Assembly: GCA_029940345.1 (NCBI GenBank)
Contig: JAOZRC010000067.1
Location: forward strand, 1-13,994
Source of the DNA: Desulfobacterales bacterium
GTDB taxonomy: Bacteria; Desulfobacterota; Desulfobacteria; Desulfobacterales; JAUCGF01
DNA length: 13,994 nt
Direction: 5' to 3'
Part shown: in pieces, positions 4,816 through 13,994 of the stretch
How the letters are laid out: the number at the start of each line of letters is the position of its first letter
Position numbering within the stretch: the first letter of the stretch is position 1
Program-made: the position numbers and the translations under genes
The notes under the pieces: generated by a model
Databases searched by the model: none
The model's input: only the letters and a program-made list of their open reading frames with translations
Told to the model about the DNA's origin: nothing

Positions 4816-5481
4816 TTATACGGATGAAGGGGATTTATTACGATAAGGAAAAATGAACATGAATTCATAGATCAAAAACGCGATGATATAAACAAAGAAG
4901 AATGCAAAAACAATATCACTTAGATAATGCACACCCCGTAGAATCCTAGCCAAACCGATCAGCGCACCGTAAAAAATCGCGCCGGCAATAATTTTTTTAC
5001 GATGTGTACGCCAAATAAAACCAAATGAAACGAAATAAAAGCCAATAGAAGCATGGCCGGAAACAAAAGCACAATTTTTCTGGCATTGATCTGATATGAC
5101 AAATGCACGTGTAAATTTTTGGACGCCGCCAAATGCCTCAATCCGACCGGGTCGAGCCCGGCCCCAGTGATCTTTGAACACGACGTTGACAACTAAGCCC
5201 GGCCCTATAATTAAAACAAGCAATAAATATATCATATACTTTTTATTCATTGAAAACGGGTTGTGTTTCCATAAAAGCAGGATGATGAGGCATATACTTA
5301 ACATCCCAACAATCACTTCTACTGACCGGTTAATGATAACGATCGTAAGGGAGTTGTATAAAAAAAAATGGCCTTTTTCAAAAAATAGTGAGGAGAACCA
5401 AATATCCAGTTCAGGAAATCCAACAAAAAGAATCGTGGCCAGGGTGAAGGCGATCAGATATATTTTCAATCGTTTAAACAC
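4816..5481 (-). CDS. PAP2-family membrane phosphatase, possibly LpxE-like
   Basis: This 221-residue integral membrane protein has about six hydrophobic helices. All three catalytic motifs of the PAP2 / lipid phosphate phosphatase family are present: KxxxxxxRP at 103-111 (KDHWGRARP), SGH at 141-143, and RxxxxxHxxxD at 179-189. H143 and H185 are the expected catalytic pair at the periplasmic face. The usual proline before SGH is valine here. Candidate substrates are lipid A 1-phosphate, undecaprenyl diphosphate or phosphatidylglycerol phosphate. Its place 31 bases after msbA in the same orientation favours a lipid A or envelope lipid role (inference). The start is GTG at 5481, with AAGG about 9 bases upstream. 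The end faces the hsp20 terminator. Confidence 0.9.
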   Translation of the reverse strand: MFKRLKIYLIAFTLATILFVGFPELDIWFSSLFFEKGHFFLYNSLTIVIINRSVEVIVGMLSICLIILLLWKHNPFSMNKKYMIYLLLVLIIGPGLVVNVVFKDHWGRARPGRIEAFGGVQKFTRAFVISDQCQKNCAFVSGHASIGFYFVSFGFIWRTHRKKIIAGAIFYGALIGLARILRGVHYLSDIVFAFFFVYIIAFLIYEFMFIFPYRNKSPSSV

Positions 5482-5512
5482 GGCGCATATCCTTAGTTTG
5501 ATCAGGATTTAA

Positions 5513-7267
5513 TCAGGAATTTTCTTTAGCGAACTGCATCCGATAAAGTTTGGCGTATTCACCCTGACGACGAAGGAGTTCTTCATGGGCACCCTCTTCC
5601 ACAATCTTACCATTAACAATTACCACAATTCGATGGGCATACCCAATGGTGGACAAGCGATGGGCGATGATAAGCGTTGTGCGCCCCTGCATCAGATTTC
5701 CAAGCGCCTTCTGCACCAGTAACTCCGATTCACTATCCAGGGAAGAAGTCGCTTCATCAAGAATTAAAATCGGTGCGTCTTTTATTAACGCACGGGCGAT
5801 GCATAAACGCTGCTTTTCGCCACCGGAAAGCCTTGAACCTAACTCTCCAATTTGGGTTTCAAATTTATCAGGCAACGATTGAATAAAATTATAAGCATAC
5901 GCCGCACGTGCGGCGTCTTCAATTTCTTTTAAGGATGCGTTCCGGTTTCCGTAGGCAATATTATTGAAAATAGTATCATTGAATAAAATCGGCTCTTGTG
6001 TGACAATCGCAATTCGATTCCGCAGTGTTTTAATCTCAATATCGCGAATATCCACACCGTCAATAAGAACGGACCCGTCGCTCACATCATAGAACCGTGG
6101 GATCAGATTGACCATAGAGGTTTTTCCGCCGCCGCTCATACCGGCTAAAGCGACGATTTCACCGGCCTTTACATTAAGGCAGATATTTTTCAACACATCC
6201 GTCTTATCATAACGAAAATAGACATTTTGAAAAGTGACCGCGTGATTCCCATTCCCAATCAGTTTGGGGTGCGGCGGATCCAGAATATCGGAACCCGTTT
6301 CAATAATATCAAAAATACGGTCGGTGGCGGCCAATCCCTGTTGCACCGAATTATTCAAACGACTCAATTTTTTAACCGGGTCGTAAAGCATGATAACGGC
6401 TGCCATAAAAGAAAAAAAAGTGCCCGCTGTTGAAGCGCCCGTAACGACATTATACCCACCATACCATATAATAAAAGCAATCCCCAAGCCGCCTAAAAAT
6501 TCCATAATCGGCGAAGAAAGCGAACGGGCTATAACAGCGTGAATTTCAAGATTAAACAATGCATCAGTCATTTTATGAAACCGTTTTTTTTCATACGGTT
6601 CCATTCCGAAAGCTTTAACGATCTTGTTGCCGACAAAAGTTTCATGAAGAAAAGCGTTTAAGTCGGCCATCGATTCCTGACACCCGGTGCTGACTTTACG
6701 CACGCGCCGGCCAAATATAAAAATCGGGAAAAAAGCGATCGGTAAGATTGCAAGAGCGCATAGCGCCATTTTCCAGTTTTGATAAAAAATAACAACAGTC
6801 AATCCGATAATCGTAAAAAAGTCTCTCAATGCACCGGTAACGGCATTAGAGACCATCATTTTGATTACAGAAACATCATTGGTCACGCGCGACATCAAAA
6901 CGCCGGTTCTTTCTTTTTGAAAAAAAGCCAGGGGCAAATCCTGAATTCGGTCATAAAGATCATTCCGAATTCGTCGGATAACACTTTCCCCCACATACGT
7001 CATAAAATATTCCTGACCGTACATTCCTAAACCGCGAACGATATAGATTAAAACGACGATGAAGGGTAACAGGGTTAGCATGGAGACATCCTGCTTAAAA
7101 AAAATATCATCCAATACGGGTTTGATCATATAAGCCGATGCCGCTGTAGATGCCGCCATCATAAGCATACAGCACATTGCCAGGAAAAGCCGAAAGCGGT
7201 TTTCTTTAATCAGGGCTAAAAGGTGGCGGTGGCGGGATCGAAGCGTGGGTAGTTGTAATTTTAGCAT
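5513..7267 (-). CDS. msbA: Lipid A export ABC transporter, ATP-binding/permease (MsbA)
   Basis: A 584-residue half-transporter, the normal length of MsbA. As a homodimer it flips lipid A-core across the inner membrane. Six transmembrane helices lie in residues about 25-300, including AYMIKPVLDDIF, typical of MsbA TM1. The ATPase domain shows Walker A GMSGGGKT (376-383), Q-loop Q424 in IVTQEPILF, signature LSGGE (480-484), Walker B ILILDE (500-505) and the H-loop H536 in IIAHRLST. All catalytic residues are intact. ATG at 7267 has no clear Shine-Dalgarno sequence. A PAP2 phosphatase follows 31 bases downstream, probably cotranscribed. A 136-bp MITE-like element sits about 130 bases upstream. 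Other ABC exporters share this architecture, but length and N-terminal motifs favour MsbA. Confidence 0.93.
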   Translation of the reverse strand: MLKLQLPTLRSRHRHLLALIKENRFRLFLAMCCMLMMAASTAASAYMIKPVLDDIFFKQDVSMLTLLPFIVVLIYIVRGLGMYGQEYFMTYVGESVIRRIRNDLYDRIQDLPLAFFQKERTGVLMSRVTNDVSVIKMMVSNAVTGALRDFFTIIGLTVVIFYQNWKMALCALAILPIAFFPIFIFGRRVRKVSTGCQESMADLNAFLHETFVGNKIVKAFGMEPYEKKRFHKMTDALFNLEIHAVIARSLSSPIMEFLGGLGIAFIIWYGGYNVVTGASTAGTFFSFMAAVIMLYDPVKKLSRLNNSVQQGLAATDRIFDIIETGSDILDPPHPKLIGNGNHAVTFQNVYFRYDKTDVLKNICLNVKAGEIVALAGMSGGGKTSMVNLIPRFYDVSDGSVLIDGVDIRDIEIKTLRNRIAIVTQEPILFNDTIFNNIAYGNRNASLKEIEDAARAAYAYNFIQSLPDKFETQIGELGSRLSGGEKQRLCIARALIKDAPILILDEATSSLDSESELLVQKALGNLMQGRTTLIIAHRLSTIGYAHRIVVIVNGKIVEEGAHEELLRRQGEYAKLYRMQFAKENS

Positions 7268-7710
7268 GGATTTAAAAATTGTATTAAACTGGTTTTAGAT
7301 TGATATGGTGATGAGTTATTTCAATTATTGTAACTCACGGAACTTTCGCAAATTTAAAGTGTACAGTATTCCGATATTTTGTAATATTATTATATCCTCG
7401 TCAGTCATAAGTTCTTATAAGTTACTGAAAGCATTGAAACCGAAAATATGGTATTGAATTTATAAGTTTCAATCAATTCAAGGGGTTACGTGACAACTTG
7501 AAACTTAACACTCAAAACGTGTAACTGACGAGTTATATCGTATCACATAGCCGAACAGTGTCAAGGAAACAGTCTTAGCGGTCAAAATTGTTACGCATAC
7601 ACATAATATCTTGTAACGTTAAGTTTTTTATGATACATAGCGTGTAAAAAGAATTAAACTTTGAAAGAGCATCAATTAAATTATCAGATACTTATAAGGA
7701 AAGCGAATCA
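7268..7710. other. Divergent intergenic region carrying a MITE-like element
   Basis: 443 bases lie between divergent msbA and the small four-cysteine gene. About a third is the element at 7397-7532 plus its direct repeats. On the msbA side there is a 6-bp dyad GAGTTA/TAACTC (7313-7318, 7331-7336), about 50-70 bases upstream of the msbA start. It could be an operator or chance. I see no convincing -35/-10 pair for either gene and no further coding frame. Confidence 0.6.
7390..7539. mobile_element. 136-bp MITE-like element, copy 1, with 7-bp target duplication
   Basis: The element spans 7397-7532. Its ends are inverted: the left starts CTCGTCAGTCATAAGTTCT, and the right arm, reverse-complemented, starts CTCGTCAGTTACACGTTTT (15 of 19 identical, first 9 perfect). 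It is flanked by perfect direct repeats TTATATC at 7390-7396 and 7533-7539, the mark of transposition. It has no coding capacity, so it must move with a transposase supplied elsewhere. It aligns over much of its length with the reverse complement of the element at 13792-13927 and has exactly the same size. Confidence 0.85.
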
Positions 7711-7875
7711 ATGTCGGAAAAATATCCTGAATGCCCTCTTTATAACCCTTTAAATTGTAAAGAGTATTATAATCCCAAGATATGCGCTTTTGTCAAAAAA
7801 GATAAGATATGTCTCAAAAAAAAGAAACCCAAGCCGAAGAAAAAAAATAACGCGATTAAAGAAACACAGGGCTAG
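7711..7875 (+). CDS. Small four-cysteine basic protein, function unknown
   Basis: A 54-residue frame starting MSEKYPECPLYNPLNCKEYY, with ATG at 7711 preceded by AAGGAAAG at an ideal distance. It has four cysteines (C8, C16, C25, C34) spaced 7, 8 and 8 residues apart in a CPLY...NC...ICAF...ICLKKKK pattern. The tail (about 35-45) is almost all lysine and proline. Evenly spaced cysteines suggest a small metal-binding (zinc or iron-sulfur) module, and the basic tail suggests nucleic acid contact; both are inference. It resembles short uncharacterised proteins I associate with syntrophic Desulfobacterota. It ends 11 bases before the convergent end of algH. There is no signal peptide. Confidence 0.75.
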   Translation: MSEKYPECPLYNPLNCKEYYNPKICAFVKKDKICLKKKKPKPKKKNNAIKETQG

Positions 7876-7886
7876 AGTGTTCGGTT

Positions 7887-8456
7887 TCAGGCATGACCGG
7901 CTGTATTCGACAACATATCAGGGTCTATTCCCAATTTGTTGATAGCCGTTTCCCATCTCATTTCCACGGGCGTATTAAATAATATTTCTTCAAAAACGTG
8001 GCTTATCAGCCATATATTTTCCATTATTTCCGCTTCCAGTTGGCCGGGGCCCCAGCCTGCGCATCCCAAAGTGATTAAAAAGGACTGCGGCCCCCGGTCA
8101 GTTGCAATGGCCTTGATTATATCCGTTGACCGACTCATGGCCAAGGATGGGGTGATCAGAAAACTGCCCTGCCAGTTCAAGGGTGGACCGTGAAGGATAA
8201 ATATCTCGCCCATATGAACCGGCCCGCCAATGAATATGGGAATCTCAGCCGCATTGGCCGAGTAGTCCATATTAAGCCCCTCAAAAAGATCCTTTCCGAA
8301 AATGACAGTTCCTATCCGGTTGATTGAAATCCCCACGGCACCGTCCTGCGTGTGTTCGCAAATACAGGTGACGGTTTTCGCAAAATTCGGGTCAGCCAGA
8401 CCGGGCATAGCCAAAATAAACTGGCCTTTTAAATAAGACGTCGATTGTGTTTCCAC
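7887..8456 (-). CDS. AlgH/YqgE family protein (UPF0301)
   Basis: A 189-residue cytoplasmic protein of the AlgH/YqgE family, at the usual length of about 185. It shows the family N-terminus LKGQFILAMPGLADPNFAKTV (residues 9-29), CICEHTQDGAVGISINR, the IFIGGPVHMGEIFILH segment and the LGCAGWGPGQLEAEI signature (about 129-143). The molecular role of the family is unsettled; AlgH was linked genetically to alginate regulation in Pseudomonas. The start is GTG at 8456, supported by AGAGGAA a few bases upstream. No neighbour shares its operon: the facing gene is the small four-cysteine protein, and an inverted repeat lies directly upstream. Confidence 0.93.
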   Translation of the reverse strand: METQSTSYLKGQFILAMPGLADPNFAKTVTCICEHTQDGAVGISINRIGTVIFGKDLFEGLNMDYSANAAEIPIFIGGPVHMGEIFILHGPPLNWQGSFLITPSLAMSRSTDIIKAIATDRGPQSFLITLGCAGWGPGQLEAEIMENIWLISHVFEEILFNTPVEMRWETAINKLGIDPDMLSNTAGHA

Positions 8457-8471
8457 TGCTTCCTCTCTCTG

Positions 8472-8583
8472 TTCTGAATAATAAATAACCGTTCATAAGT
8501 TTTCCTGTGTTTAACCCAGATTATTATAGGAACAGTGGCGAAAAGAACCAGAAAACTTATGGCCGGTTACTTATGATTGACGC
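8472..8583. repeat. Large imperfect inverted repeat, possible decayed MITE relative
   Basis: The core arms TAACCGttCATAAGTTTTC (8486-8504) and its inverted partner at 8551-8569 match at 17 of 19 positions. With flanks, 25 of 33 positions match around a 46-base centre. The outermost right end, reverse-complemented, reads CGTCAATCATAAG. This differs at one base from CGTCAGTCATAAG in the terminus of the 136-bp elements. No direct repeat flanks it, and the left outer end is poorly conserved. Relatedness to that family is therefore tentative. Confidence 0.55.
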
Positions 8584-8685
8584 AAAATAACTGCAGTATG
8601 GAATTAAAAGTGATATTTTTCAAGTTTTTTCCCAAAATGCTGCCAAACATTAATCTGTTTAGAATCAAAGTCAAATCCTAAAAGA

Positions 8686-8714
8686 TTGACATGCCATGGG
8701 GGGGATGATATAGA
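8686..8714 (+). promoter_or_regulatory. Predicted sigma70-type promoter of tatA
   Basis: A perfect TTGACA (8686-8691), a 17-base spacer and TATAGA (8709-8714, 4 of 6 to consensus). A start near 8721 would give a leader of about 86 bases before tatA. Confidence 0.6.
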
Positions 8715-8806
8715 GCGTGATATTTTGGCTTTGCGATTAATAGGGAGTGCTTTTATTTGATCTGTAAATTTATTTTACAATGTCGTTAAACGACTAGGAG
8801 GCTGTT

Positions 8807-8989
8807 ATGTTTGGAATAGGTATGTGGGAACTTGGCTTTATTCTGATAATTGTTTTAATTATTTTCGGGGCCGGAAAACTTCCGGAAATCGGCACAGGAA
8901 TGGGTAAAGCGATTCGAAATTTTAAAGGTGCCACTTCGGATTCGGAAAAAAAAGAACATGAAAAGATTGACGATAAATCCAATGCTTAA
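8807..8989 (+). CDS. tatA: Twin-arginine translocase subunit TatA/TatE
   Basis: TatA polymerises into the pore-forming or membrane-thinning part of the Tat system, which exports folded proteins with twin-arginine signals. The 60-residue protein has one N-terminal helix (about 5-20, [18 protein letters not shown]), the conserved FGxGKLPEIG hinge (20-29), the amphipathic helix ending in RNFKG (37-41), and a charged tail rich in D, E and K. AGGAGG lies 5 bases before the ATG, and a good sigma70 promoter lies upstream. No tatB or tatC is nearby, so it is a stand-alone gene like many Desulfobacterota tatA copies. The length fits the short end of the family. Confidence 0.95.
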
Positions 8990-9094
8990 TATTTGCTCTA
9001 AGAGTTTAATCTTATAACAGCGAAATATTGAATGATCTTTTTATTTTAACAAAAACCACAGCGCATTAAGCATAACTTCTCAACCTTTCCCACA

Positions 9095-10597
9095 ATGATT
9101 CAACTTCCCAAATTAAATTTCTACACCCGGGAATGCAATACAAATTTTGGGATAAATTTTACAGTGAAACACTTATCAATTTTAGTTTTGTTTGCAATCC
9201 TGGTCGGTGTGGCTCCGAACGGTTTACTGGCAAAATGTATCCGTGGAGATTGTCAAAATGGCCCCGGTGTTATGATGCTTCCAGGCGGTGAGCAGTATAG
9301 CGGCCAATGGAAAAACGGAAAATTTGACGGCCAGGGAACCTACACCTTTTCAAGCGGGAAAAAATATATTGGGAACTGGTGCCAAAACCAACGCGATGGC
9401 CAAGGGATAATAACATATAACAATGGCGACCAATATAACGGTCATTGGCGCAATGGTAAACATCATGGCTATGGTGTTATGCATTTCACCAGTGGCCAAT
9501 TATTTACGGGGCATTGGGAGAACGGCAAGATCAATGGCCATGGAACCATGAATGATCCTGATGGCAAACAATATATCGGCGAATGGCAAGACGGACAGTT
9601 AAACGGTCAGGGAACGCTTATTTTCCCTTCAGGCGCTAGATATAGCGGACTTTGGTTAGATGGGACGCAAAATGGTCAGGGTTCCATGCGCTACGCTGAT
9701 GGTGGAAAATATGTTGGTGATTGGAAGGATGGTGAACGGTGCGGTCAAGGTACGCTTAGGCTTTCCGATGGACAAACCTACACGGGACAATGGCGTAAGG
9801 ATGTTTTTAACGGTCAGGGAACGATGCTCTTTGCCAATGGCGATGTGTATGTCGGTGACTGGAAAGATGGCAAATTCCATAGACATGGCGTCATGAATTT
9901 TGATAGCGGTAAAAAATACACGGGTAGCTGGGAAAAGGGAAAATTCCATGGCTACGGAATGATGAAATTTGCCAATGGTGATAAATATAACGGAGAATGG
10001 GTAATGGGTAAAATTACGGGTAAAGGGGTGATGCACTATTCCGAAGGCCGTCGCTATTCCGGACAATGGGTGAATAATCAGTTTAACGGTAAAGGCGTTA
10101 TGCACTTCGCGAATGGGTCCCAATACGATGGGCATTGGGAAAATGGCAACTTTGAGGGACTGGGAGCCATGCTATTTCCTGATGGTAAAAAATATAACGG
10201 CTCCTGGTCCGCAGGTAAATACCATGGCCAAGGTACATTCGTTCATCCTGATGGCCAGACATATAAAGGCGCTTGGAAAAATGGCATTCGTCAAGGGCAA
10301 GGCGTTATGATCTATCCCAGCGGGTGTAAATATTCAGGTCAATGGAAAAAAGACAGGTATAATGGCAAGGGAACGATGACCTTGGCCGATGGTTCCAAAT
10401 ACATTGGCAATTGGAAAAATGGCCGTTTTTGCGGTAAAGGAACCATGCTTTATGCGGACGGGAAAAAATATGTTGGCCAGTGGAGAAATGATAATTGTAA
10501 CGGCAAAGGTACGTTAATATTTCCTGATGGCCGTAAGTATAAAGGCGTATGGAAAAATGGTAAGTTTTATAAAAAAACCACAAAAAAGAAAAAGTAG
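9095..10597 (+). CDS. Exported protein of 19 tandem MORN repeats
   Basis: The frame is 500 residues from ATG at 9095, but a Sec-type signal peptide starts at residue 24 (VKHLSILVLFAILVGVAPNGLLA, then KC). GTG at 9164 is therefore an attractive alternative start; neither site has a clear Shine-Dalgarno sequence. After a short Cys-containing segment (CIRGDCQNGPG) the whole protein is MORN repeats, each with one YxGxW motif. I count 19 (EQYSGQW to RKYKGVW) in strict 23-residue phase, ending in a lysine-rich tail (KKTTKKKK). MORN repeats form an extended beta-hairpin solenoid that binds proteins or lipids; no enzymatic domain is present. The cysteine near the cleavage site lacks a proper lipobox, so a soluble periplasmic or secreted protein is more likely than a lipoprotein. 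It lies 105 bases after tatA but has no twin-arginine signal. Confidence 0.9.
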   Translation: MIQLPKLNFYTRECNTNFGINFTVKHLSILVLFAILVGVAPNGLLAKCIRGDCQNGPGVMMLPGGEQYSGQWKNGKFDGQGTYTFSSGKKYIGNWCQNQRDGQGIITYNNGDQYNGHWRNGKHHGYGVMHFTSGQLFTGHWENGKINGHGTMNDPDGKQYIGEWQDGQLNGQGTLIFPSGARYSGLWLDGTQNGQGSMRYADGGKYVGDWKDGERCGQGTLRLSDGQTYTGQWRKDVFNGQGTMLFANGDVYVGDWKDGKFHRHGVMNFDSGKKYTGSWEKGKFHGYGMMKFANGDKYNGEWVMGKITGKGVMHYSEGRRYSGQWVNNQFNGKGVMHFANGSQYDGHWENGNFEGLGAMLFPDGKKYNGSWSAGKYHGQGTFVHPDGQTYKGAWKNGIRQGQGVMIYPSGCKYSGQWKKDRYNGKGTMTLADGSKYIGNWKNGRFCGKGTMLYADGKKYVGQWRNDNCNGKGTLIFPDGRKYKGVWKNGKFYKKTTKKKK

Positions 10598-10613
10598 TAT
10601 CTTATTCAAATTC

Positions 10614-10802
10614 AGGCATCCTTCATATCAGTCTAAAAGTAGTTTACACTTTTGAAGGAGTGCGGCCCTTAACGAACTGCTAATAAACACGAATGATTGA
10701 TTTTTATCAGAGTTCATTAGCGTTTATTCGTGGTTCGCATTTCTTTATGACTACCTAATTGTTAACTGGAAAATGAAGGATGCCTAAAGTTGTTTACACT
10801 TT
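10614..10802. repeat. Nested inverted and direct repeats between the MORN and kinase genes
   Basis: Three layers occur in this convergent intergenic region. First, a perfect 13-bp inverted repeat, AGGCATCCTTCAT (10614-10626) and ATGAAGGATGCCT (10773-10785). Second, a 17-bp direct repeat, AAAGTAGTTTACACTTT (10636-10652) and AAAGTTGTTTACACTTT (10786-10802), 16 of 17 identical, the second overlapping the kinase stop codon. Third, an interrupted hairpin at 10674-10736 made of GAAC/GTTC, AATAAAC/GTTTATT and AATG/CATT arms. The hairpin arms resemble the CACGAATAAAC-type dispersed repeats of some bacterial genomes (recollection). It could act as a bidirectional transcription barrier. Confidence 0.7.
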
Positions 10803-12006
10803 AAATGATTTCCTCCACGGGCAGAGCAACTATAAATTGACTCCCGGAACCCGAGGGATTCTGTTCCGCCCAGATATCACCTTGATGGCCTTCGATAATC
10901 TTACGGCAAATTGCCAGACCGATGCCTTTACCACCTGCGCCTGTTTTGGTTTTGCTGCTTTGAATAAAGCTGTCAAAAATATTCTGGCATTCTGCCAGGG
11001 GAATTCCGATGCCTTGATCAATAAAAAATATTTTTACAGCCGGAATCTTGGTGTTGTCAGTTGTTTCAATTTGGCCTTTCTGAACACGAATCGTTATCTT
11101 CTTGCCTTCAGGGGAAAATTGCACCGCATTTGAAATAAGATGATGAAACACTTCGCGTATTTTCATCTGATCGCAAAAAATCTTTTCCTCTGACAAGGGC
11201 TCTGTCAATTCCACGGAGAGTTGCTTCGCGCGCACCTCCGAATATAAATCGGCAATCACCGAATTAATAATTGGCAGCGTATCATATTGTTTTTTTTTGT
11301 ATTTTACCCGTCCGGTTTCCAAACTGGCCAGCTCCAAAATAGAAGCCAGCAATTGCATCAACCTTTCCCCGCAAATGCCGATTTGTTTAAAATAAGTCAG
11401 AAATTTATCACGCGTCGCTTTCTCTATATTCCTGATTCCAAAATCAGAATAATTCAAAATACCATGTAAAGGCGTCCGAATTTCATGGGACATATTGGCT
11501 AGAAATTCGCTTTTGGCAAGATTGGCGGCTTCCGCCATCTCTTTGGCAATTTTTAATTCCGCTGTGCGTTCCTGAACCCGTTTTTCCAGATGTTCCCGGT
11601 GCCGTTTCAGTTCTTCCTGCGCATATTTCAATTTGAGATGGGTGTTGATACGGGCAAACACTTCAGCTCGCTGAAAGGGTTTGGTTATGAAATCAACCCC
11701 TCCTGCTTCAAAGCCCTTCAGCTTATCATCAATGTCACTGAGAGCGCTGATAAAGATAATTGGCGTCTCTTTTGTCCCTGGCTGGCGTTTTAGCCGACGG
11801 CAGACTTCATAGCCATCCATTTCGGGCATAACGACATCCATCAGAATCAGATCAGGAGCTCTTTGAGCGGCCACTTCCAAGGCAGCGATTCCATCTCGGG
11901 CCACCTGGAGATGATAATTCTTACTTCTGAGCATATCTGCCAGAATTTGTAAATTGCCCAAACTATCATCTACAATTAATATGAGTGAATTTGTATCGTT
12001 GACCAT
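10801..12006 (-). CDS. Hybrid sensor: response regulator receiver fused to histidine kinase
   Basis: A soluble 401-residue protein in the order REC (about 8-125), coiled coil (about 128-165), HisKA (166-235) and HATPase_c (about 270-398). In REC, D13/D14, phosphoacceptor D57 ([13 protein letters not shown]), S87 and K109 are all present. The H-box is [10 protein letters not shown] with H174. The ATPase has an N-box ([14 protein letters not shown]), DQGIGIP and GGKGIGLAI. All residues for both phosphotransfer halves are intact. With no transmembrane or PAS domain, it probably receives its signal through the REC domain from another kinase and relays it onward; no partner is visible nearby. ATG at 12006 is preceded by AAGGAAA. 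The radical SAM gene lies 197 bases upstream on the same strand. The stop lies inside a 17-bp direct repeat. Confidence 0.94.
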
Positions 12007-12203
12007 GAAATTTTCCTTAAGATATCGAATTTGGAAATTCAGAGTTCAGATAACTACCCAATTTTAAGCCCGATTTTAGGATTTGGGTCAAAAGGCTTGG
12101 GGGATGCTTTTATTGAAAGGAAATACATCGACAACAGCCAAAACAATGAAACAAATCATCTGGATATTTCAGACATTTTATTGTGTAATCGGGCAGATAT
12201 TAT
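12007..12203. other. Gap between radical SAM and hybrid kinase genes
   Basis: 197 bases without a supported gene. A 6-bp dyad ACCCAA/TTGGGT (12056-12061, 12083-12088) lies 50-80 bases upstream of the kinase start and could be a regulatory site. No terminator-like hairpin with a T-run follows the radical SAM gene on its strand, so the two genes may be cotranscribed. Confidence 0.45.
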
Positions 12204-13559
12204 TCATGCGGCAATTAAATTTTTCAGATATGTGATCACTTCCCATGAAAAATTTTTCTGCTGACAAGGGAAGATAGCGTTATTCGTAAAAACCGGATCA
12301 GCTTCAAGATCATAACGTGAGGAGTTAACGGCTTCATCCCATAAAACGGTATGAGGGATCGGTGTATAGTAGGCCAATATAGGGCTTACACCACTTTTTT
12401 TTACCAATTTGATAGATGATTCAATTGAATAAAGTGTTTGTCCAGGTAAACCGACCAGCAAATAGGCACCCACCTGATTTTTTTTAAAACCGGCAGCTTT
12501 CAAATGCGCAACGGCTCTCCGGAATTCATCTGCTGTCACCTTGTTGTCTAATTTTTGCCTATCCCCAAAAAGGGCGCTTTCAAGCCCCAGACGCACTGTT
12601 TTAAACCCAACTTGAAACATCAGGTTCGCTGTCAAAGCAGTGATTTCACGAATATGAATCGCATTGGGCGTGTGAAACCTAAGCTTTAAACGGGCATTCA
12701 GAATTTTCTCCATTATCGGAACCGCGCGTTGGTCAGCATTTACTAAAAGCGCATCATCGTAAAACACGAAATCCTTAATGTTGTATTTCTGATGCCAGAA
12801 AATAATTTCCGACACGACAGTATCAGCACTTCGCTCCTGGAAAGAAGGGTTTAAATAGTGGGATGCACAGTAAGCGCACGCAAAGGGACATCCCGTGGAA
12901 GTGAGCAACGGAACAAATCCGATCTGTCGCTGAATATCCCAAGACGGATATGGATAGCTGTCCAAGTTAGCGGAATCAAATTGAAGACCGATATCAATAC
13001 CGCGGTCGGGTAAACCGGTGACATCGGCTACCACATTGAGTACCTCCGCATTGCAAACGCCCGAATATACTCGATCCGCACCCGAATGCTTTACGGCATG
13101 TTCATAGCAAAGGCTTGCATAAACACCACCTAATATCACAGGTGTATCGGGAAAACAATCCTTAATTAGCGCAATTGTTTCCTGTACCCCCGGATACCAG
13201 TAGGTCATCATTGACGAAACTAAAATCAGCGCCGGCTCCGGAACTGTTGCCAAATCATCATAAAGCCACTTTTTTTTAATCCCATAGCGGCTAAAACGCC
13301 TGTTAACGTCTTCCATTCCCTGGGGGCGCGCAATTCGTGTTTTTAAATAAGGGCCGCGACCTGATCGGGCAGTTGCCGATTGCGGTGATGACCGCGGATG
13401 GAAACGATCAAGACAGTCTATGTAGGTGACGGCAAATCCGTGGCTGCGTAAAATAGAAGCCAAAGATAACAGGCCCAGCGGCCGCGCCCAGAAATCATAA
13501 GCGGCAAAATCATGAATCCACGGATTAACTAATAGGATATTGGGTGCGTTTGAAAACAA
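12204..13559 (-). CDS. B12-binding-domain radical SAM protein
   Basis: A 451-residue protein. The N-terminal region (residues 5-180) has a Rossmann-like B12-binding fold pattern: NILLVNPW, LGLLSLASILRSHGFAVTYIDC, then LILVSSMMTYWYPG and VILGGVYAS (141-149). The radical SAM core begins with STGCPFACAYCAS, giving the CxxxCxxC cluster ligands C224, C228 and C231, followed by FVFYDDALL and LRLGLES strands. It should bind a 4Fe-4S cluster and SAM and generate a 5'-deoxyadenosyl radical. The DxHxxG cobalamin motif is not seen, as is common in this group, so cobalamin use is unproven. Substrate is unknown. TTG at 13559 is the only start that keeps NILLVNP near the N-terminus: an in-frame TAA lies 5 codons upstream and the next ATG is well inside the domain. 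No clear ribosome binding site is present. Confidence 0.88.
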   Translation of the reverse strand: MFSNAPNILLVNPWIHDFAAYDFWARPLGLLSLASILRSHGFAVTYIDCLDRFHPRSSPQSATARSGRGPYLKTRIARPQGMEDVNRRFSRYGIKKKWLYDDLATVPEPALILVSSMMTYWYPGVQETIALIKDCFPDTPVILGGVYASLCYEHAVKHSGADRVYSGVCNAEVLNVVADVTGLPDRGIDIGLQFDSANLDSYPYPSWDIQRQIGFVPLLTSTGCPFACAYCASHYLNPSFQERSADTVVSEIIFWHQKYNIKDFVFYDDALLVNADQRAVPIMEKILNARLKLRFHTPNAIHIREITALTANLMFQVGFKTVRLGLESALFGDRQKLDNKVTADEFRRAVAHLKAAGFKKNQVGAYLLVGLPGQTLYSIESSIKLVKKSGVSPILAYYTPIPHTVLWDEAVNSSRYDLEADPVFTNNAIFPCQQKNFSWEVITYLKNLIAA

Positions 13560-13621
13560 GTGTCTGAAGTTTTAAGTGCCTGAAGTTGTCGAATATAGTA
13601 TTCAACTTTTGTTTTTTCTGC

Positions 13622-13651
13622 TGGAACACGCAAACTGAAGTTTGCACTCTT
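13622..13651. repeat. Short palindromic repeat
   Basis: GCAAACT and AGTTTGC (13630-13636, 13639-13645) form a perfect dyad around GA. It is set in a GGAACAC...ACTC context that resembles dispersed GCAAACTTCAGTTTGC-type repeats I have seen in Desulfobacterota and other genomes (recollection). T-rich sequence follows, but the 2-base loop makes a terminator role doubtful. Confidence 0.5.
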
Positions 13652-13784
13652 TTATTTCGGAAAAACCAAAATCAGATTAGGATACTATTTAAATTGAATC
13701 CGCCACGATGCCACACACACATAATTATTTACAAAGCGTAATAATTGATTTATGAAGCACTCTTTTTCATATATTGATACCTTG

Positions 13785-13934
13785 TGTATTTCTCGACAGT
13801 CATAAGTTCTTCGTAATTTAGACAGCAAGTTTTATTAACTATCTGAAATAATAGGAAATTAATATTAGGCAGCCATTTTTAAAATATCAATAAATTCAGT
13901 AGGTTACAAGAACTTATGACTGACGAGTGTATTT
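13785..13934. mobile_element. 136-bp MITE-like element, copy 2, with 7-bp target duplication
   Basis: The element spans 13792-13927. The left end CTCGACAGTCATAAGTTCTT and the right end, reverse-complemented, are identical at 19 of 20 positions. It is flanked by perfect direct repeats TGTATTT at 13785-13791 and 13928-13934. It lies in the opposite orientation to the copy at 7397-7532: its reverse complement begins with the same 20 bases and then shares TAA, TACTGAA and ATTGA blocks at matching positions. No coding frame is present. Confidence 0.88.
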
Positions 13935-13994
13935 AAAGTTTGATTTTATTACATTTGGCATGAAAAGTTCAAGTAAAATTTTAAATTCGGAATT

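Follow-up and report, generated by a model that had tools for sequence, protein, structure and literature searches.

A 136-bp miniature element family in a Desulfobacterales genome and its probable partner insertion sequence

The stretch of DNA analysed here (the window; 13,994 nucleotides, contig JAOZRC010000067.1 of GenBank assembly GCA_029940345.1, from a Desulfobacterales bacterium) raises the question of how two segments of equal length came to share their ends and to be bounded by different short duplications. An earlier note on this DNA had read them as copies of a miniature inverted-repeat transposable element (MITE), and its description holds. Both segments measure 136 bp (7397..7532 and 13792..13927), their inverted ends start with CTCG[A/T]CAGT, each is enclosed by its own perfect 7-bp direct repeat (TTATATC and TGTATTT), and comparison of the two confirms that they lie in opposite orientation. 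They are also non-coding, as no open reading frame (ORF) of at least 60 residues overlapping either copy was found. We consider, with a probability of about 0.9, that the two segments are MITE copies and that an insertion sequence (IS) with like ends encodes the DDE transposase that probably recognises their termini. The features of a MITE are indeed found together: a short element without a transposase gene, terminal inverted repeats, duplications that differ from site to site, dispersed copies and empty sites.

Copies, target duplications and empty sites

The window is the entire contig C646 of a 6.05-Mb draft genome (G000; 1024 contigs). The earlier note had proposed a search for further copies with the 20-bp terminus and the full 136 bp, and many were found. 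The 20-bp end has 95 matches with up to three mismatches in this genome, versus none for a reversed control pattern, and BLAST returned 40 matches with copy 1 and 43 with copy 2. Pairing of the ends in the fetched flanks, with window copy 2 added and window copy 1 counted as locus L001, gave 38 distinct paired copies, 27 of them exactly 136 bp long. This set leaves out L078 (which repeats L004), L036 (2 bp of right flank) and the alternative pairings L024 and L034. Exact duplications of 6-8 bp enclose 28/38 paired copies (22 of 7 bp, three of 6 bp and three of 8 bp), five more have a 6/7-bp duplication match and five have no duplication; these counts exclude loci with at most one clear end, often situated at contig ends or decayed. 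Thirty-five such one-clear-end loci were inspected, among which L051 and L078 were paired under a looser rule. With shifted flanks, none of 303 control placements reaches a duplication of 5 bp. Given these contrasts with the controls, neither the end matches nor the duplications can be due to chance. The 7-bp duplication claimed at the outset is thus the usual length, but 6 and 8 bp occur too, and the A+T content of the exact MITE duplications is 87%. A 283-bp element with family ends and a 6/7-bp duplication was also seen (L066:1497-1779), perhaps a nested or longer form.

Empty sites were sought in a genome of the same genus (G001), whose contig C76 is syntenic with positions 4822-13994 of the window. 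The MITE and one duplication were deleted and the joined 80-base flanks were compared with G001 without gaps, a procedure used instead of MAFFT alignments, which put the gap wrongly. The joined site of copy 1 matches G001 at 52/80 bases versus at most 46 after shifts of 1-4 bases, and that of copy 2 at 65/80 versus at most 49, so that G001 lacks both window insertions with single-base precision. For three of the 38 copies (the two in the window plus L011), each flank could be located within ∼1.23 Mb of G001, and each of these three sites is empty. In the reverse direction, a copy on G001 contig C116 is absent at the matching place of G000:C624, where the intervals are 879 versus 198 bp and the difference is not precise. 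Taken together, genome-wide copies, varied duplications and base-exact empty sites support transposition, as the earlier note had supposed.

The copies fall into subfamilies. Among 35 copies of 125-140 bp, window copy 1 belongs to a group of six and window copy 2 to one of 27, the remaining two standing alone. Some sequence-identical pairs sit in different duplications, for example L009 (TCAATA) and L011 (TATATGA). Since, among the G001 matches listed, those to copy 2 are confined to one terminal part and many full-length ones resemble copy 1, subfamily 2 seems to have expanded in the lineage of the window's genome. The features of the two window copies are the following.

7390..7396, left 7-bp target duplication of copy 1, TTATATC
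7397..7532, plus strand, MITE copy 1, subfamily 1, 136 bp; precise empty site in G001:C76
7397..7416, plus strand, left terminal inverted repeat of copy 1, CTCGTCAGTCATAAGTTCTT; exact match of the family end
7417..7490, internal inverted repeat region of copy 1 (alignment columns 21-44 and 73-95), imperfect
7513..7532, minus strand, right terminal inverted repeat of copy 1, CTCGTCAGT then diverged; 5/20 mismatches
7533..7539, right 7-bp target duplication of copy 1, TTATATC
13785..13791, left 7-bp target duplication of copy 2, TGTATTT
13792..13927, minus strand, MITE copy 2, subfamily 2, 136 bp; precise empty site in G001:C76
13792..13811, plus strand, terminal inverted repeat of copy 2, CTCGACAGTCATAAGTTCTT
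13908..13927, minus strand, terminal inverted repeat of copy 2, CTCGTCAGTCATAAGTTCTT
13928..13934, right 7-bp target duplication of copy 2, TGTATTT

The ends of copy 1 form a perfect 9-bp inverted repeat (CTCGTCAGT) with weaker complementarity further in, and those of copy 2 are complementary over 19/20 bp. The nearest genes on the left-hand side are msbA for copy 1 (5513-7267, minus strand) and a radical SAM gene for copy 2 (12204-13559, minus strand).

Spread across the order and the interior of the element

With up to two mismatches, the end is present in 23 of the 146 genomes of the order that were examined (G000 among them), three or more times in 11 of these, whereas the reversed control gives single matches in 8. 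The richest genomes are G000 (82 ends), G074 (72), G001 (53), G036 (44) and G007 (28). When several pairings were possible in the relatives, precedence went to a pairing with a duplication; on this basis, exact duplications of 6-7 bp enclose 15/19 copies of G001, and exact duplications of 6-8 bp enclose 15/21 copies or sites of G074, G036, G116, G007, G060, G114 and G137. Eight further loci in relatives (L083, L084 and L087-L092, two of which coincide with L220 and L232) show no duplication. The 136-bp length occurs in G000, G001, G007 and G060 (three copies in the last two), and the MITEs measure 160-171 bp in G074, 101-106 bp in G036 and 235-237 bp in G116. The MITE family is spread over several families of the order. 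The one-contig genome G116, in which two of the MITEs with family ends are 235-236 bp long (L226 and L227), has no match to the transposase discussed below. Presence outside the order is not claimed, as the reversed control matched as many genomes: phylum-wide, 10/297 genomes (own included) have the end with up to two mismatches and 11 have the control. Eight of those ten lie outside the order, seven with a single match and G153 with ten. The G153 sites are ten identical copies of CTTGACAGTCAAAAGTTCTT and may be one end of another element.

The interior was examined in an alignment of 38 copies from four genomes, namely 29 from the window's genome, six of the 19 from G001, two from G007 and one from G060. 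Own-genome copies L007, L011, L022, L031, L051, L052, L064, L066 and L073 were omitted, and the MITEs of other lengths (G074, G036 and G116) stand outside it. An internal inverted repeat, GTAAC....CTGAAATnATTG, at columns 21-44 and 73-95, is conserved in the four genomes. Between-group identity reaches 0.72 and 0.66 in its arms versus 0.45 in the loop and 0.33 in the right spacer (chance, 0.27-0.32), and the arms pair in 77.8% of cells versus 22-46% for slid versions. The earlier view that the interior had diverged with selection on the termini only would suit the loop and the right spacer, which are much nearer to chance level, but not the internal inverted repeat.

These values, together with the 136-bp length kept in four genomes, may suggest that the internal repeat is a second functional module of the MITE, which the transposase or a host factor might bind. 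We regard this as possible but rather doubtful. Covariation in the repeat across the 38 aligned copies is not above shuffles, so that the arms are conserved but selection on pairing is not demonstrated. The MITEs of G074, G036 and G116 have like ends with other interiors and lengths, which indicates that the internal repeat is dispensable for mobility. Moreover, shared ancestry alone could give the pattern, and G007 and G060 contribute only two and one copies, chosen for their 136-bp length. Promoter-like sites near copies are not clearly above shuffles (6 versus a mean of 3.0, sd 2.1; 3 versus 2.1, sd 1.7).

Candidate partner insertion sequence and other repeats of the window

The ends of bacterial MITEs commonly resemble those of resident or related insertion sequences. 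In the window's genome, an end at C342:547-566 lies 68 bp behind a 158-residue transposase C-terminus that starts at the contig's first bases. No further transposase copy was found in this genome besides a 24-residue match at the end of C562; the idea that this contig carries the partner's left end was rejected, as the match lies at the contig end and no end motif was seen upstream.

Full-length insertion sequences with like ends and like duplications, which the earlier note had suggested looking for, are found in relatives. The element of L080 (a metagenome-assembled genome of Desulfobacteraceae) has 1687 bp, ends CTCGACAGTCCAAAGTTTT and CTCGACAGTCCGAAGTTTT, a duplication TTCCTTT read by eye and a transposase divided into two frames. 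That of L094 (G074) has 1756 bp, a 6-bp duplication (ATTTAT) and an open transposase gene, a single 491-residue frame without stops behind AAAAAGGAGG. L102, L105 and L097 (1605-1608 bp) have CTGGACAGTAGAAAGTT ends and 7-bp duplications. A scan of 14 transposase loci that was independent of the MITE end added L242 (1569 bp, 6 bp) and L244 (1857 bp, 7 bp) and recovered L097, with no ends plus duplication in the other 11/14. In addition, L082 carries the exact 20-bp left end and has the same IS end and flank as G001:C75, and L096 has both ends but its duplication was not found. The seven full insertion sequences have duplications of 6-7 bp and six of them have CT at their ends, L242 being read starting one base further outward, at a T. 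MITE and IS ends are identical over 17 terminal bases in the window's genome and over 20 in G001. A second copy of the end motif lies 44 bp inside the left end in L094 (1350-1369) and L096 (1432-1451), perhaps as a second transposase site.

The encoded protein is a DDE transposase whose YREK signature is complete in 29/30 aligned sequences, with R for K in the L094 protein. The nearest solved fold of its predicted model, which is of low confidence, is that of IS50/Tn5 with 10-12% identity, and searching by sequence with the transposase profile retrieved no solved structure up to an E value of 1. The transposase (E value up to 1e-10) is present in 6/11 genomes with at least three ends versus 10/135 of the rest (one-sided Fisher p = 2.2e-4), and in 4/9 versus 10/135 when the own genus is excluded (p = 0.0055); these p values are not corrected for shared ancestry or general IS richness.

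In the mechanism that we propose, an insertion sequence with similar ends would supply a DDE transposase that recognises the ends CTCG[A/T]CAGTCATAAGTTCT[T/C], excises the element and inserts it into AT-rich DNA with a stagger of 7 bp (6-8), resulting in the flanking duplications. MITE copies would be mobilised in trans by this enzyme, which may work by Tn5-like cut and paste. In a wider scenario, the order would have a single MITE superfamily that depends on an undescribed IS4-like subgroup with 7-bp duplications; the internal repeat of the 136-bp form would have its own job (binding the transposase or a host factor, or controlling genes nearby), and the 136-bp form would have moved between bacterial families. 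We consider it speculative and rather unlikely.

Another transposase, outside the YREK/DDE_5 group, might move the MITE family, the likeness of the ends being then a matter of convergence or distant kinship. A transposase of the YREK kind was not found in 5/11 MITE-bearing genomes (three or more ends), the single-contig G116 included, and the MITE interiors are not derived from these insertion sequences. However, 17 and 20 identical terminal bases, the equal duplication length, the same kind of ends in seven insertion sequences and the co-occurrence across genomes make this improbable, and G007 (1190 contigs) is, like others, a fragmented draft from which a repeated IS may be lost. An ISNCY/ISDol1 partner, a lead based on the 6-7 bp that ISDol1-like ISNCY elements duplicate, was set aside as NF033594 has no match in G000, although this model may not cover ISDol1. 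The partner IS that we favour may already carry a name in ISfinder.

Finally, that the segments are functional non-coding elements (small RNA or regulatory hairpin), inherited and not mobile, would agree with the conserved internal repeat and with single strands folding better than shuffles (z of -2.7 to -11.2; 10 strands from five copies), but is largely refuted and almost certainly wrong given the duplications that differ from site to site, the precise empty sites in the sister genome, an RNAalifold consensus that pairs only the termini, the lack of covariation above shuffles in the internal repeat, and an Rfam search in which the window, L057, L229 and L231 gave nothing at the gathering threshold.

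The window also contains other repeats. Positions 8483-8588, upstream of algH, hold ∼106 bp versus 16 bp in G001, with inverted repeats at 8477-8504/8551-8578; this is probably another small insertion, outside the MITE family by its ends. Positions 10608-10800 hold 193 bp versus 32 bp in G001, with an inverted repeat CAGGCATCCTTCAT at 10607-10626/10773-10792, and probably belong to another repeat family; part of them (10615-10653) is found again in G007, G074 and G114. A third repeat, with the terminator-like palindrome GCAAACTGAAGTTTGC, lies at 13595-13685 and recurs in several fetched loci of G000 and, among the matches listed, at many loci of G001. The only terminator-like site found near the copies, at 13630-13645, is not part of the MITE. 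A 500-residue ORF (9095-10597) consists in part of 69-bp DNA repeats, which by eye we take to be MORN-like, and has no NCBIfam match.

Comparison with known systems

The family is new but of a well-known kind, an ordinary and well-supported case. Bacterial MITEs such as MITEAba12, TIMEs and the repeats of Thiohalocapsa PB-PSB1 (PMC10907252) are likewise short and non-coding, with inverted ends and many copies. End sequence, the usual 7-bp duplication and host group set the present family apart from named MITEs, by description only. In the literature searched, nothing was found on MITEs in Desulfobacterales or on inverted-repeat transposase elements in Desulfonema. The new points are a likely partner that has 7-bp duplications and lies between IS4 and IS701, the spread over families and the conserved internal repeat. 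For the large genomes of sulphate-reducer relatives, this work describes a well-defined MITE family together with its copy number, its target duplication, cleanly empty sites and a likely partner. Its end consensus eases the annotation of these repeats, and the copies may break draft assemblies, since several sit at contig ends.

With regard to the partner, the IS4 family carries the signature Y-(2)-R-(3)-E-(6)-K together with DDE, and the ISPepr1 subgroup is described with YREK, 5'-CT ends, AT-rich duplications of 7-8 bp, a length of 1500-1600 bp and the end consensus YT-AA-YTT---A (De Palmenaer 2008, PMC2266710). IS4-family transposases are encoded without frameshift, and the partner shows both an open frame (L094) and a split one (L080). 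By description, the partner resembles ISPepr1 by its YREK signature and in part by its ends (CT in 6/7 elements) and its duplications (6-7 bp for the IS, 6-8 bp for the MITE). It differs in that the family end CTCG[A/T]CAGTCATAAGTT fails the consensus, a comparison by description, in that 6/7 elements exceed the published length, and in that NCBIfam puts its transposase nearest an IS701 model. With NF049999, NF033540 and Pfam DDE_5 as the IS701-family models considered, just one NCBIfam model, NF049999 (transpos_IS701_3), matches every one of the 30 aligned transposases, and DDE_5 is noted for 72/120 listed homologues (hand count). Yet L094 scores 84 bits versus a cut-off of 170. Moreover, IS701 elements duplicate 4 bp and only 4/27 have the signature tyrosine (PMC2266710), whereas the partner duplicates 6-7 bp and its YREK is nearly always complete. 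The IS50 subgroup duplicates 8-9 bp (PMC2266710), and the likeness to IS50/Tn5 is weak, resting on the fold of the low-confidence model. Judged by its sequence features, the partner does not fall cleanly into IS701 or any published IS4 subgroup and sits between the IS4 and IS701 definitions, which makes this group useful for IS classification.

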